A program made the position numbers and the translations under genes. From NCBI GenBank assembly GCA_003577145.1, contig QEUP01000024.1, positions 1-47,881 on the forward strand: a stretch of DNA of 47,881 bases, given 5' to 3'. Positions 14,167 to 42,254 of the stretch are shown one piece after another; within the stretch, counting starts at the first letter, position 1; each line of letters starts with the position of its first letter. Source of the stretch: Acidobacteriota bacterium. GTDB lineage: Bacteria; Actinomycetota; Acidimicrobiia; Acidimicrobiales; Microtrichaceae. The notes under the pieces were generated by a model that saw nothing but the letters and a program-made list of their open reading frames with translations, ran no database searches and was not told the origin of the DNA.

Positions 14167-14207
14167 ACCGAAAAGGCCCCTATAGGGGCCACGCGCGTTC
14201 ACAAATC
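14158..14207. repeat. Stop-codon hairpin element, copy 1
   Basis: The 44 bp at 14162-14205 are identical to 36838-36881. The outer arms TGTGAAC/GTTCACA contain TGA on both strands: the plus-strand stop of the inositol-monophosphatase-like gene (14164-14166) and the minus-strand stop of the converging gene (14199-14201). The inner palindrome GGCCCCTATAGGGGCC is followed on the minus strand by TTTT, so it can act as an intrinsic terminator for the minus-strand gene. Confidence 0.93.
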
Positions 14208-36842: not shown

Positions 36843-36886
36843 ACCGAAAAGGCCCCTATAGGGGCCACGCGCGTTCACAAAACCGG
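36831..36886. repeat. Stop-codon hairpin element, copy 2
   Basis: 36838-36881 is identical to 14162-14205. Here the outer arms extend to 14 perfect pairs: CCGGTTTTGTGAAC (36831-36844) with GTTCACAAAACCGG (36873-36886). The inner palindrome is GGCCCCTATAGGGGCC. The left arm supplies the ferredoxin stop codon. Flanking bases differ from copy 1 yet pair with each other. Confidence 0.94.
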
Positions 36887-37019
36887 AGTGGGGCCCGTCG
36901 GAGCCGCAAGTAGGCCGATCGGCCCCAAGACCGGGGATGACGCGGCGCAGGCCTAAAGACGCCGCCGTCAACGCCGATGAGTGCCTCGAGAGCGGTGCAG
37001 GCAACACCGAGGAGGCCCC

Positions 37020-39488
37020 ATGTCCCCGCTGCCGACGAGGCGTCGGCGCCGTCGTACCGGAATCGCCGGCGTGCTGGCTGCCGCGCTGGCGCTGGCCCTG
37101 TCCTCAGCAGGCCCGCCCCTGGCGCCGGCGGGGGCTCAATCGAGCCCCCTCGTGATCGAGACGATCGGCGTCGGAACCGAGAGCCAGGCCCCACCGGTGC
37201 TCAGCAACGACGGTGTGCGCCTCGGCAGCTCGATGGCTGCCCTCGACGCCGACACCCTCGTCTACTTCGGTGGCTCCTTCGTGGGAGATGACCAGGACGC
37301 GGTGACCGGCGATACGTGGTTGCTCGATGGCGGCATCTGGACGCCGGTGTGCGGTACAGCCGTCCCCGGCGCAGATCAGGCGTGCGGGCCGGCGCCGCGG
37401 GCCCTTCACGCCATGGGCCAGGTGCCGGGAGGAGGAGTGCTGCTCTTCGGCGGCTCCGACGGCTTCGACATCGACGAGAACAGCGAGATCTACGCCGACA
37501 CCTGGCTCTTCGACGGGTCAGCTTGGGCTCCGATCTGCGGCACTACGGCGCCCGGAGCCCAGCAGGCCTGTGGTCCGGGGCCCCGTGCAGGCTCGACGAT
37601 GATGGAGAGCCAGGGCCAGGCCTTCCTGTTCGGTGGACTCGACCTCCAGGGCACGTACAACGACACCTGGGCCTACACCGGCAGCGGTTGGAAATCGGTC
37701 AACGACGGCCACGGACAGGCTCCCGGCCCGCGGGTGTGGTCACAAGGAGCCCCCTATGGCGACGGCAACGTGCTCTTCAGTGGTGGGATCGTGCCCCATG
37801 AGGGCGGTGACTCCGGTGAAGGTCGCACCAAAGACAGCCCGGCTTCGTTCGTCCCGGCGGCGGGCAGCCTCATCTACTCGCCGTCGCCGTCACCTCTGCA
37901 GGGTCAAGCACCCACCTACCTCGCCAGTGCCTCACCCCTGTCGTTCAGCGGCAACGACTACACCAACACGGGGCCGGGCGGCGGCCCCGGCAATGGCGCG
38001 ACGTTCCTGGCGGCGGGCGAGTGGTTCCAGGGCATCGGGGCCGACAACACCCCGCTTCACAACCCGACCGGTGCCCCCTCGTCTTTCGACGTCGCCCTCG
38101 TCGACTACGGCAGCGCCAAACGCGGCACCGTCTACATCCAGTCCAACATCTTCGACCAACTCGGCCTGAACCACGACTGTGCCGGTGCCAGCTCGGTCCT
38201 CAACAGCTACGGCCAGAGCGTGACCTGCGAGAACTTCAAACCGTCGATCCTGCAGCAACCCGCGTACGGTGCCAACTTCAACTTCAGCGGCTACGGCGGC
38301 TTCCAGAACGGGGGCCCGGTGGCTGAGGTGAACGCGCCCCCATGGACACCGGGCACCGACCCCTTCGTCATCGCCAGTGGGATGGCAGCCGTCGATCACC
38401 AGGGTCCTTGTTGCGGCCAGCCCGACTACGGTGCCATGTTCGCGCCGGGACTGGGCCTGGGGCCCCACTGGATCTGGGACAACAGCACGAAGTTCGCCGG
38501 GCTCGACAGCGCCGGCGCCCTGTCGTCGGTCCATGTCGGTTTGATCAGCGTCAACGGCGCGGACCTGACCTTCTACGCCGCCAAGGATGCCTTCGTGGCC
38601 GGCGGCTACCAAGAGGACTGCAAGGGGCTCATAAGGATGTGGCGGGATCGCGTGGCACCCCAGCCTGAGGTCGTCGGCTGCCGCAACTTCAAGCAGAACA
38701 TCTTCGTCCCCAACGGGCCCGGCGAGGACTACACGTTCACCGGCTTCGGAGGCTTCGTGTACCCCGCTTCCGTCTCGGAGACGCCACTTTTCGCCGGCGA
38801 CGGCCCCCCGAAGCTGGTCTACGTCGATGGACCGGAGACAGAAGCGGGGCTGTTGGCCGACACCTGGCTGTGGAACCCCATCGACATGGCGTGGAACCCG
38901 GTGTGCGGCACCAAGATCTCGGGCGCGGATCACCCCTGTGGGCCTCAAGGCCGCCTGGGAGCGGGCATGTCACCGATCGTCTCCCTGGACCCGTCGCTTG
39001 ACGGCGCGCTGATGGTGTCGGGCATCGCCCCCCTCGAAGAGGGGGCTCAGTACCTGGGCGACATCTGGCTGTTCAGCGAGGGCGGCTGGCACCAGCAGCA
39101 GTCGCCCTGGAACTCGGTGACCCTCAGCAGCGAGGGTTCAATACCGAACGGCACTCCTGTTCCCCTGGGCATCCGCACCGCAGCCTTACCCGGCGACTGT
39201 CAGGTCGCCGGCTTCGGCTTGGACACCGAAGCGGTCCTGGCGGCTTGGGGTCAGAATCCCGCAGACATCAGCGAGTACAGCATCACCCTCGCCTTCGGCT
39301 TCGACACCACCGGCGAGGGCGAGATCGACCCGTGTCCCCAGACCACGAGCACACCCGGCTCGGGGGATCCGGGAGCCGGACTGGCTTTCACCGGCGCTCA
39401 CTCCCTCCCCTTGGCCCTGCTCGGAGCGGTGTTGGTGCTCAGCGGCATGCTGCTCGCTCGCCGATCCGGTTCGGTGAAACGCCGATGA
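37020..39488 (+). CDS. Large secreted kelch-like surface protein with LAFTG sorting signal
   Basis: This 822-residue protein starts with an Arg-rich signal peptide (RRRRRRTGIAGVLAAALALAL...PAGAQS). Kelch-like blades follow (DTWLLDGGIWTPVCGT, LFGGSDGF, YADTWLFDGSAW, LFGGLDLQGTYNDTWAYTG), then a ~350-residue central region with GANFNFSGYGGFQNGGPV, a final kelch-type segment, and a C-terminal LAFTG, hydrophobic helix and basic tail. That last part is a sortase cell-wall signal of the LAxTG type used by class E sortases. Three copies of a motif CGTxxxGAxxxCGP suggest loop disulfides. ATG at 37020 has AGGAGG upstream. Its stop overlaps the paralogue's start. Function unknown; probably adhesion or glycan binding. 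Confidence 0.82.
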   Translation: MSPLPTRRRRRRTGIAGVLAAALALALSSAGPPLAPAGAQSSPLVIETIGVGTESQAPPVLSNDGVRLGSSMAALDADTLVYFGGSFVGDDQDAVTGDTWLLDGGIWTPVCGTAVPGADQACGPAPRALHAMGQVPGGGVLLFGGSDGFDIDENSEIYADTWLFDGSAWAPICGTTAPGAQQACGPGPRAGSTMMESQGQAFLFGGLDLQGTYNDTWAYTGSGWKSVNDGHGQAPGPRVWSQGAPYGDGNVLFSGGIVPHEGGDSGEGRTKDSPASFVPAAGSLIYSPSPSPLQGQAPTYLASASPLSFSGNDYTNTGPGGGPGNGATFLAAGEWFQGIGADNTPLHNPTGAPSSFDVALVDYGSAKRGTVYIQSNIFDQLGLNHDCAGASSVLNSYGQSVTCENFKPSILQQPAYGANFNFSGYGGFQNGGPVAEVNAPPWTPGTDPFVIASGMAAVDHQGPCCGQPDYGAMFAPGLGLGPHWIWDNSTKFAGLDSAGALSSVHVGLISVNGADLTFYAAKDAFVAGGYQEDCKGLIRMWRDRVAPQPEVVGCRNFKQNIFVPNGPGEDYTFTGFGGFVYPASVSETPLFAGDGPPKLVYVDGPETEAGLLADTWLWNPIDMAWNPVCGTKISGADHPCGPQGRLGAGMSPIVSLDPSLDGALMVSGIAPLEEGAQYLGDIWLFSEGGWHQQQSPWNSVTLSSEGSIPNGTPVPLGIRTAALPGDCQVAGFGLDTEAVLAAWGQNPADISEYSITLAFGFDTTGEGEIDPCPQTTSTPGSGDPGAGLAFTGAHSLPLALLGAVLVLSGMLLARRSGSVKRR

Positions 39489-41905
39489 GACCGGTACGAG
39501 CTCTTCGCGCCGCGCTGGTGCTGGTGGCGCTGGCCCTGTCGAGCGGCCCCGCGGTACAGGCCTGGGCTGCGGGCGAGCCCCCGCTGGTCGACGAGACGCT
39601 GGGCACCTACGGCGAAGGCCAGTCACCGCCGGTGATAGACGGCAACGGCGACCTTCGGGTGGGGGCGGGAATGGCGGCGGTGGACGCCGACACGATCCTT
39701 TACTACGGCGGCTTCCTGACGAACGAGGGGGAGCCCAAGCGCGCTGCCGGTGACGCCTGGCTGCTGGAGGGCGATACCTGGCGACCGCTGTGCGGCACCC
39801 AACTCGCCGGTGCTGACGAGGCCTGCCCGCCTGGAGCCCGAGCCTTGCCTGCAGTAGGAGCGCTGCCCGGCGGTGGTGTCGTGATCTACGGCGGGTCAAA
39901 CGGCTGGTTCGGCGACTCGGGAGTGGAGTTCTTCGCTGACACCTGGATCTTCGACGGGGTCTCGTGGATCCCCGTGTGCGGCACCGCCGTAGCCGGTGCC
40001 GACCACCCGTGCGGCCCCGGCGCCCGGGGGGCTTCGAACGTGCTGGCGACCGCAGCGGGCGCCTACCTCTTCGGTGGTGGCCGCACCGAGGCCGCCTTCA
40101 ACGACGTGTGGCGATTCACCGGCTCTTCGTGGGAGCTGGTCCACGACGGCTCCGGGACGGCTCCGGCACCTCGGGGCCTGGCGCAGGTTGCTGCTGAGGG
40201 GCCTGGCGCCGTGCTCTTCGGAGGGCTCAGTGCACCCGAGGATCTGCAGTCGAGGTCGGTGCAAGCCGACCCCGAGGTCGTCTACTCCCCCTCTCCGTCT
40301 CCGCTGAGTGCCACGGTGGCCCTCTACACCGGTGCAGCATCGCCGCTGTCCTACGGCGGCACGGACTACACGTCCACGGGGGGCCTCGGCTCCGGTACGG
40401 GCGCGGTGTACCTCGCTGCCGGCGAGCCCTACCAGGCCATCGGTGCGGACTCGGCACCGCTGTCGATCCCCACCGGTGAGGCCACTCGCTTCGACGTGGC
40501 ACTGCTGGACTTCGGCGGCGGTCAGTACTCGACGTACTACATAGAAGCCACGGTGTTCGACCAGTTCGGGCTGATCAGGGACTGCGGTGGCACGGTACAG
40601 CTCGTGAGCGGCCTCGCCGGCGGCGTGCCGGTGACGTGTGACAACTTCAAGCCGGGCATCCTCACCCAGCCCGGTGCGGGCGCCAACTTCAGCTTCAGCG
40701 GTTACGGCGGCTTCCAGAACGGCGGACCGGTGACCGAGGTCAACGACCCCCAGTGGTCACCCGGCATCGACCCGTTCATCACCCGCTCGGGTAGCAACCA
40801 GGTCCACTTCCAGGGACCGTGCTGCGGTGCGTCCACACCCGGTGCCCAGTTCGCGGTCGCCGTCGGCCCCGACATCGCCTGGGTCGACCGCGAGGGCATC
40901 GGGCTAGTCGGCCTCTACGACGGGCACGACCTGAGCGCTGTCAACGTCGCTATCGTCAGCGTCAACGGGGCGAAGGTGACGATGTACATCTCGGCACGGG
41001 CCTTCAACGACGGCAGCTACAGCCAGGACTGCGCCGGCCTGCTACGCATGTGGCACACCAACCCGCCCAATCCCTCGTCGGCGCCGACGGGCTGCGCCAA
41101 CTTCAAACGCGGGATCTTCGTGCCCAACGGAGTCGGCGCCCACTACACCTTCACCGGCATGGGGGGCTTCGCTGTCCCCAACCCGGTGTCGGAGACCCCG
41201 GCCTTCCAGGGGGACGGTGAGCCCTACCTCCGTTACGTGAGTGGTGGCGACTCGCCCGATCCGGTCCTGCTTGCCGACACCTGGGCCTGGGACCCCGGTT
41301 CCAACACCTGGACCCCGCGCTGCGGTACCCCCCATCCGGGCGCCAACGCGCCGTGCGGACCGGCTGGCAGGGTGCTTTCGCTATTCGCTCACGTCGACTC
41401 GCTCGATCCCACTCGTGAGGGGGTGCTGATGGCCGGGGGGCTGGTGCCGCCGTCCGGTGGCGGCGATGTGCACGCTCCGGCGCTCATGGGTGACATCTGG
41501 CTGTGGTCGGGTGGCTCGTGGCAGCCCCTCGAGTCGCCGTGGGTCTTCATGGACCCCAACAAGGGTGACGAACCGCCACCCGAGCAGATACCACCCCTGG
41601 CGCTGCTCGGCGCCACGGTATCAGCGGGGTGCTACGTGGCCGGTTACGGCCTCGATTCTGCTGACTTCGCGGGCAGTGGTGGCGAGGGTGAACCGCGGGG
41701 CATCACCTTGGCATTCGGATTCGACACCACCGGCGAGGGCGAGATCGACCCCTGTTCCCAGAACACGGGAACACCGGGCTCGGGGGACCCGGGGGCGGGG
41801 CTGGCGTTCACCGGCTCACCCGTCTGGCCCTTGGCCGTCCTCGGCGGCGTCTCCCTCCTCCTCGGGCTTGTCGCCAGGACCTGCTCTCGGCGGCGCCAGG
41901 CCTGA
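39485..41905 (+). CDS. Second kelch-like surface protein, tandem paralogue
   Basis: This 806-residue paralogue of the preceding protein shares its layout throughout: signal peptide (RALRAALVLVALALSSGPAVQAWA), kelch-like blades (DTWIFDGVSWIPVCGT, LFGGGRTEAAFNDVWRFTG), a central FDVALLDFGGGQYSTYYIEATVFDQFGL region and GANFSFSGYGGFQNGGPV, then a C-terminal LAFTG, hydrophobic helix and SRRRQA. The three CGTxxxGAxxxC motifs are present, with PP in place of GP in the first. The start overlaps the previous stop as ATGA, so the two are translated together and may form a heteromeric surface structure. No sortase gene is in the window. gatC begins 46 nt later. Confidence 0.82.
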   Translation: MRPVRALRAALVLVALALSSGPAVQAWAAGEPPLVDETLGTYGEGQSPPVIDGNGDLRVGAGMAAVDADTILYYGGFLTNEGEPKRAAGDAWLLEGDTWRPLCGTQLAGADEACPPGARALPAVGALPGGGVVIYGGSNGWFGDSGVEFFADTWIFDGVSWIPVCGTAVAGADHPCGPGARGASNVLATAAGAYLFGGGRTEAAFNDVWRFTGSSWELVHDGSGTAPAPRGLAQVAAEGPGAVLFGGLSAPEDLQSRSVQADPEVVYSPSPSPLSATVALYTGAASPLSYGGTDYTSTGGLGSGTGAVYLAAGEPYQAIGADSAPLSIPTGEATRFDVALLDFGGGQYSTYYIEATVFDQFGLIRDCGGTVQLVSGLAGGVPVTCDNFKPGILTQPGAGANFSFSGYGGFQNGGPVTEVNDPQWSPGIDPFITRSGSNQVHFQGPCCGASTPGAQFAVAVGPDIAWVDREGIGLVGLYDGHDLSAVNVAIVSVNGAKVTMYISARAFNDGSYSQDCAGLLRMWHTNPPNPSSAPTGCANFKRGIFVPNGVGAHYTFTGMGGFAVPNPVSETPAFQGDGEPYLRYVSGGDSPDPVLLADTWAWDPGSNTWTPRCGTPHPGANAPCGPAGRVLSLFAHVDSLDPTREGVLMAGGLVPPSGGGDVHAPALMGDIWLWSGGSWQPLESPWVFMDPNKGDEPPPEQIPPLALLGATVSAGCYVAGYGLDSADFAGSGGEGEPRGITLAFGFDTTGEGEIDPCSQNTGTPGSGDPGAGLAFTGSPVWPLAVLGGVSLLLGLVARTCSRRRQA

Positions 41906-41936
41906 AACCGGCGCCCTCGGTTGGCGGGACCACCAC

Positions 41937-41942
41937 TACGAT
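41937..41942 (+). promoter_or_regulatory. -10 element upstream of gatC
   Basis: TACGAT fits TANNNT and ends 9 nt before ATG 41952, implying a leader of only a few bases for the gatCAB message. No clear -35 box is seen. Confidence 0.4.
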
Positions 41943-41951
41943 GGCGTACCT

Positions 41952-42254
41952 ATGCCTGGCCGCATCACCCGCGACGACGTGGCGTACGTAGCCCGCCTGG
42001 CCCGCCTCCGCCTCACCGACGCCGAGCTCGATACGTTCACCCAGCAGCTCTCCGACGTGCTCGAGCATGCCGGTGACATCTCGGCTCTCGACATCGCCGA
42101 CGTCCCCCCGACGTCGCACCCGTACCCACTCGCCAACGTCTTTCGCGAGGACACGCCGGTACCGAGCGTGGACCGGGGCGAGGTGCTGGCCCAAGCGCCC
42201 GTCGCCGAGGACGGCATGTTCCGGGTTCCACCGGTCCTCGGGGAGGCGCCGTGA
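41952..42254 (+). CDS. gatC: Asp/Glu-tRNA amidotransferase subunit C
   Basis: This 100-residue small subunit wraps around GatA and stabilises the amidotransferase. The family pattern is clear: [40 protein letters not shown] (in parts), [17 protein letters not shown], and a C-terminal FRVPPVL. ATG at 41952 begins at the family N-terminus. The gatA start overlaps the stop (GTGA), giving a tight gatC-gatA-gatB operon. The complex makes Gln-tRNA and/or Asn-tRNA by transamidation. Confidence 0.95.

Follow-up and report, generated by a model that had tools for sequence, protein, structure and literature searches.

Paired kelch surface proteins with two tandem copies of an inserted module and predicted sortase anchoring

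Gene pair, anchor signals and sortase

The window, which is the whole stretch of 47,881 nucleotides that was analysed, contains two overlapping genes on the forward strand, here called A and B. Both encode predicted surface proteins, with the following features.

37020..39488, + strand: gene A, surface protein of 822 residues (open reading frame; Shine-Dalgarno-like GAGGAGG directly before the ATG, by eye)
37020..37139, + strand: A, signal-peptide-like N-terminus, end approximate (basic run, then a hydrophobic stretch, Kyte-Doolittle 1.74)
37218..37787, + strand: A, kelch blades 1-3, then the opening half of blade 4 (strands A-B) (Pfam, blade alignment)
37911..38351, + strand: A, inserted module 1 (profile and alignment of copies)
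38358..38831, + strand: A, inserted module 2 (profile and alignment of copies)
38841..39119, + strand: A, closing half of blade 4 (strands C-D), then blade 5 (blade alignment)
39120..39347, + strand: A, C-terminal region with cysteines 727 and 772 conserved in B (A/B alignment)
39381..39485, + strand: A, LAFTG, hydrophobic helix and basic tail (motif search, hydropathy)
39485..41905, + strand: gene B, paralogue of 806 residues (open reading frame; start codon overlapping the stop codon of gene A in ATGA)
39485..39571, + strand: B, signal-peptide-like N-terminus, end approximate (Kyte-Doolittle 1.81)
39653..40225, + strand: B, kelch blades 1-3, then the opening half of blade 4 (strands A-B) (Pfam, blade alignment)
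40319..40762, + strand: B, inserted module 1 (alignment of copies)
40769..41245, + strand: B, inserted module 2 (alignment of copies)
41255..41554, + strand: B, closing half of blade 4 (strands C-D), then blade 5 (Pfam, blade alignment)
41801..41902, + strand: B, LAFTG, hydrophobic helix and basic tail (motif search, hydropathy)

The ATGA shared by the two genes occupies positions 39485-39488. The start of gene A was placed at 37020, giving 822 residues; the listed start at 36981 is a GTG and would yield 835 residues. Pairwise alignment showed A and B to be 50% identical along their whole length, with regional identities ranging from 0.39 in the signal to 0.58 in module 1, and in a short stretch ending in LAFTG 15 of 16 residues are the same. 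The two long open frames, their full-length mutual similarity and the Pfam matches above cut-off argue that A and B are not chance reading frames. Since the GC content of the genes (0.679 and 0.697) resembles that of the window (0.681), a foreign origin has no compositional support. A scan of both proteins against NCBIfam returned nothing. Their export signals, called by eye and by hydropathy, consist of hydrophobic N-termini behind basic residues. For the C-terminal regions of A (39120-39347) and B (41555-41767) no Pfam match was listed; the two regions have GFDTTGEGEIDPC and two conserved cysteines in common.

The window has two copies of GGCCCCTATAGGGGCC, a perfect palindrome of 16 bases, at 14175-14190 and 36851-36866, with none expected from 100 shuffles. 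The second copy lies between a ferredoxin-like frame and gene A, and the palindrome may be a terminator or a repeated binding site. Behind gene B, 46 bases (41906-41951) lead to a gatC-like frame starting, by eye, at 41952, followed by frames read by eye as gatA and gatB. With so short a gap, transcription of the surface genes could reach into the gat frames.

The LAFTG motif stands at residue 788 in A and 773 in B, each time with a hydrophobic stretch and a basic tail behind it. The genome from which the window comes (96.6% complete) gave one sortase match, with 96.6 bits for PF04203 against a cut-off of 26.6. Its best NCBIfam model was class E, at 153.9 bits and thus 6 bits under the cut-off of 160; the next, SrtD (70.8 bits) and class D (60.2 bits), also stayed below their cut-offs, and the class C model gave 50.2 bits against a cut-off of 160. 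The general model TIGR01076 was passed (56.9 against 39.35). Residues H167, C239 and R248 were found by eye in their usual contexts together with a GHY motif, which aligned with the GHY of the sortase in PDB 5go5. The sortase tyrosine is presumably equivalent to Tyr229 of SrtE1, going by residue numbers in text and not by an alignment with SrtE1. According to an excerpt of PMC5148588, class E sortases have LAXTG as their signal and a conserved tyrosine just past strand beta3.

Other candidate substrates were sought in the same genome with the letters LAFTG, one of the LAXTG forms. The DNA pattern gave eight matches, compared with five for a reversed-pattern control. In five of the eight, namely A, B and proteins in L020, L021 and L022, the motif was directly followed by a hydrophobic segment with a basic or charged end behind it; the other three (L017, L018, L019) did not have this arrangement. 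The LAFTG protein at L020:1-1611 (C48) has a thioester domain (Pfam TED, 32 against 22 bits) and PKD/Ig-like domains and is possibly a covalent adhesin, and L022:1-1611 (C53) encodes a LAFTG-anchored protease of the subtilase family with a PKD domain.

The sequence-only reading had described overlapping paralogues of 822 and 806 residues with kelch repeats, signal-like N-termini and LAFTG-helix-basic tails, and the reading frames, pairwise identity, Pfam and hydropathy bear this out. Its proposal of sortase anchoring is supported by the LAFTG signals and by the one class-E-like sortase gene, and the genome is not without a sortase, which would have spoken against the proposal.

Kelch scaffold and inserted modules

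Kelch repeats were recognized by Pfam in both proteins (Kelch_4 in A, 48.2 bits against a cut-off of 21.6; Kelch_6 in B, 28.8 against 25.3). Five blades are recognisable by sequence, the fourth of them split; closed kelch propellers have five to seven blades. In A, blade 4 runs from residue 237 to the double glycine at 256 and its D-T-W half restarts at residue 608 (591 in B). When the intervening 351 residues of A and 343 residues of B were removed, PF24681 scored 56.1 bits in A and 50.9 bits in B (cut-off 50), compared with 43.0 and 39.4 bits in the intact proteins; the front parts alone scored 47.7 (A) and 37.3 bits (B). An HMM of the eight remaining blades of A and B gave 25.6 (A) and 27.8 bits (B) for the joined blade 4, compared with a best value of 10.6 among 315 control joins in A and of 16.6 among 303 in B. 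The front piece by itself scored 4.2 (A) and 10.2 bits (B) and the piece after the insert 20.1 and 17.6 bits, so most of the join score comes from the second half, to which the front adds 5.5 bits in A and 10.2 in B.

If the second half in A is lengthened by the strand KLVYVDG, PF24681 gives 53.1 instead of 56.1 bits. As both values pass the cut-off, the boundary at which the insert ends can be placed to within about 10 residues. We dropped KLVYVDG as a kelch strand since it aligned with the last strand of the modules of a related genome (G507, see below), which is not decisive. By these alignments the two-module insert is placed in the predicted B-C loop of kelch blade 4 in both proteins. In addition, a CGT...C loop follows blades 1, 2 and 4 (the D-A loops) in A and in B.

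The centre of each protein consists of two tandem copies of one module of about 150 residues. The two halves of the central region matched each other with an hhalign score of 63.1 (E 3.3e-10, 88 columns); all 50 column-shuffle controls scored lower, the best at 20.2. The sequence FSGYGGFQNGGPV is present in A and B, and a diverged second module copy comes after it in each. The module signature is DC-x-G, then C-x-NFK, then a G-x3-F/Y region with an F-S/T-G-x-GGF end. Mean column identity over 19 copies is 37%. All 17 copies in alignment A7 share two invariant cysteines, which are missing from the copies of two further genomes, G869 and G730.

Searches of Pfam with 17 copies, of NCBIfam and PHROGs with 19 copies, and of PDB sequences gave no credible match for the module; isolated weak matches were all that appeared. 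Those taken as chance were Laminin_G (E 0.02) and TASOR PIN (E 0.44), each in one of 17 copies, a Hoc-like PHROG (E 0.0055), a virion PHROG (E 0.038), an NCBIfam hypothetical in one of 19 copies (E 0.049), and SPT16 among the PDB sequences (E 1.6-2.0). Judged by titles and abstract openings in the open-licence literature, no protein of the A/B kind is described. From its sequence we regard the module as an undescribed, predicted extracellular domain family. A and B themselves appear to be sortase-displayed multidomain surface proteins of a known kind, and it is the inserted domain family that is new.

The sequence-only reading had seen one central domain, shared by both proteins and assignable to no family. 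The sharing and the lack of a family were confirmed, the profile search of the centre giving no clear match to a characterised domain, but the region proved to be two module copies inserted in kelch blade 4. The module also has relatives in G507, G869 and G730, the latter two in another scaffold.

Relatives and history of the module

Relatives were sought with successive profiles, each relative being found by a profile built without the new member; E-values are per genome. The genome sets overlap and the larger searches scored part of the first-look candidates, so misses are possible. A profile of the four window copies, run against 395 genomes of the class, found, in addition to the own genome, G507 with 10 matches (the best at 8e-14); inside G507 it detected 11 of 13 copies at i-E <=3.4e-5 and one at 2, and missed one. 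The 17-copy profile of window and G507 modules, run against 396 genomes of the phylum, added G869 (1.8e-12) and G730 (1.1e-7) besides the own genome. G507 belongs to another order, and G869 and G730 to another class.

Copies of the module are very thinly distributed, and this does not sit well with a function that is widely required. Only the own genome was found among 33 genomes of the window's family (window-only profile) and 298 of its order (19-copy profile). The 19-copy profile found only G507 and the own genome among 315 genomes of the class, and only G869 and G730 among 31 genomes of their class. With the 17-copy profile, no module was found in 57 other genomes of the order of G507. Full-length relatives other than A and B themselves were absent from 61 genomes; none were seen in genome contigs or viral contigs searched with a few short patterns, which relatives can escape, and tblastn gave no match in plasmids or phages. 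Several candidates were not accepted: G033, G244 and G154, found with the two-row profile A2 in 397 genomes (E 0.0019-0.0078 per genome), were too weak, and the A8 profile gave no match in G033; G461 was a weak match of the window-only profile in the 395 class genomes (E 0.0064); and G050 and G051 were kelch-only and G017 anchor-only matches, not module relatives.

The 13 copies in G507 belong to one three-module gene (L040) and five tandem two-module genes (L041). An LPxTG-helix sequence follows all six genes, each time in a frame different from that of the preceding module, and in two of the five tandem genes the two modules are themselves in different frames. We take these breaks as assembly errors in GC-rich stretches; they may also reflect gene decay. 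With its tails out of frame and decay possible, G507 gives weaker support for anchoring than its appearance suggests. G869 has one module, at residues 595-735 of its frame, with repeat scaffold on both sides of it: by eye there are beta-helix-like coils before the module, and NosD and Beta_helix matches, two stretches each and the best from 737, come directly after it. The protein ends in frame with an LPATG-helix. The single module of G730 has by eye the same layout, with a DUF5719 match; the Pfam scan gave no beta-helix hit and the end of the printed frame has no LPxTG.

In a tree of the 19 copies, module 1 of A paired with module 1 of B (99/97) and module 2 of A with module 2 of B (100/99). 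This pairing of like-numbered modules indicates that the two-module insert is older than the A/B duplication. Among the five tandem genes of G507 the second modules grouped together (100/99) and the first modules less firmly (83/83), and the array looks like a product of tandem duplication. The deeper branches of the tree were weak. Taken by sequence and layout, the relatives suggest that evolution may have moved the module among scaffolds as a binding head. With less than even confidence, the module may be a movable recognition domain that was inserted into unrelated repeat scaffolds, kelch propeller and beta-helix, and that occurs also in scaffold-free tandem pairs on sortase-anchored proteins, thinly spread across the phylum.

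Proposed function and comparison with known systems

The architecture of A and B described above is, from the sequence evidence, very probably right. A and B would be secreted and then attached, presumably covalently, to the cell wall by the class-E-like sortase. The predicted kelch propeller would carry the two tandem modules in the B-C loop of blade 4. Excerpts from studies of eukaryotic kelch propellers describe B-C and D-A loops that make the shallow-pocket face of K13 (PMC6650413) and B-C loops that shape the substrate surface of KLHL20 (PMC6720452). An insert in the B-C loop should therefore stand on the side that is the ligand face in those propellers, and the modules would share this face with the D-A loops of blades 1, 2 and 4, which have cysteines and in which disulphides could form. 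Such modules would make a binding head kept at a distance from the wall, adhering to or capturing a surface or polymer. The LPxTG-helix after the six G507 genes and the in-frame LPATG-helix in G869 point to a surface role for the module. A and B are most likely adhesin-like surface receptors whose modules would project from the ligand face of the propeller. A binding or adhesive function is slightly favoured, against which stands that no ligand or binding-site motif was found; the explanation as a whole, of wall-anchored kelch propellers with binding-head modules inserted in blade 4, we consider reasonably probable.

The modules might instead have no ligand and serve as structural spacers that make surface proteins longer or stiffer. 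The modules of G507 do stand in tandem before proline-rich linkers and LPxTG in the manner of stalk domains, and sequence conservation is low, at 37% over the 19 copies. The window modules, however, break a repeat fold instead of extending a stalk, and by layout those of G869 and G730 likewise interrupt a repeat scaffold, which leaves the spacer function unlikely. A joint surface structure of the two proteins had been suggested in the sequence-only reading from translational coupling; it might be a heterodimer or a fibre, with the coupling controlling the ratio of A to B. Such a structure agrees with the ATGA, the parallel architecture of A and B and the 15 of 16 identical residues in the stalk plus LAFTG. 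Tandem gene duplication explains the pair equally well, the sole sortase is class-E-like, with the class C model below its cut-off, and most regions have diverged by about 50%, as in ordinary duplication. We rate a joint structure as quite unlikely.

It seems very unlikely that A and B are enzymes in which a kelch propeller provides an oxidase or glycosidase and the modules help to bind the substrate. The copper ligands of galactose oxidase include histidines; A has 11 histidines and B has 9, of which not one pair aligns, so that the copper-histidine pattern of galactose oxidase and GlxA is not seen in A/B. The Pfam scan showed no catalytic domain in either protein. In favour of an enzyme, Pfam describes Kelch_4 as galactose oxidase, central domain, and there is a precedent in Streptomyces GlxA, described in an excerpt of PMC3543389 as galactose-oxidase-like and required for development.

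The analysis defines a putative undescribed extracellular domain family that is open to cloning and testing, and it shows one domain within repeat scaffolds of two different kinds. Should the modules prove to bind, they would illustrate how little-studied bacteria make surface receptors, with binding heads set into the loops of a rigid scaffold.

Comparison with known systems and with the relatives places A and B as follows. G507 (L040, L041) resembles them in having module pairs or a triplet in tandem paralogous genes, each followed by an LPxTG-helix, and differs in having LPATG or LPRTG in place of LAFTG, tails in another frame, and no Pfam domain in the two of six module-gene frames scanned. 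The proteins of G869 and G730 (L061, L062) also have the module within a repeat scaffold, with an LPATG-helix end in G869, whereas their scaffold is parallel-beta-helix-like (by Pfam in G869, by eye in G730) and their modules do not have the conserved cysteine pair. Like class E sortase substrates, which according to the excerpt of PMC5148588 include the Streptomyces chaplins with LAXTG, A and B combine a LAFTG-helix-basic tail with a class-E-like sortase in the genome; compared with chaplins they are large propeller proteins, and their attachment is predicted from sequence. With kelch propellers (Kelch_4, Kelch_6 and the KLHDC2/KLHL20 type of PF24681) they share the double-glycine, D-T-W and W motifs. 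A and B differ from these in being, by sequence, secreted and anchored, in the cysteine pairs of three D-A loops, which are absent from three kelch proteins of related genomes (L004, L005, L009), and in the B-C loop of blade 4, which carries about 345 residues comprising two domains.
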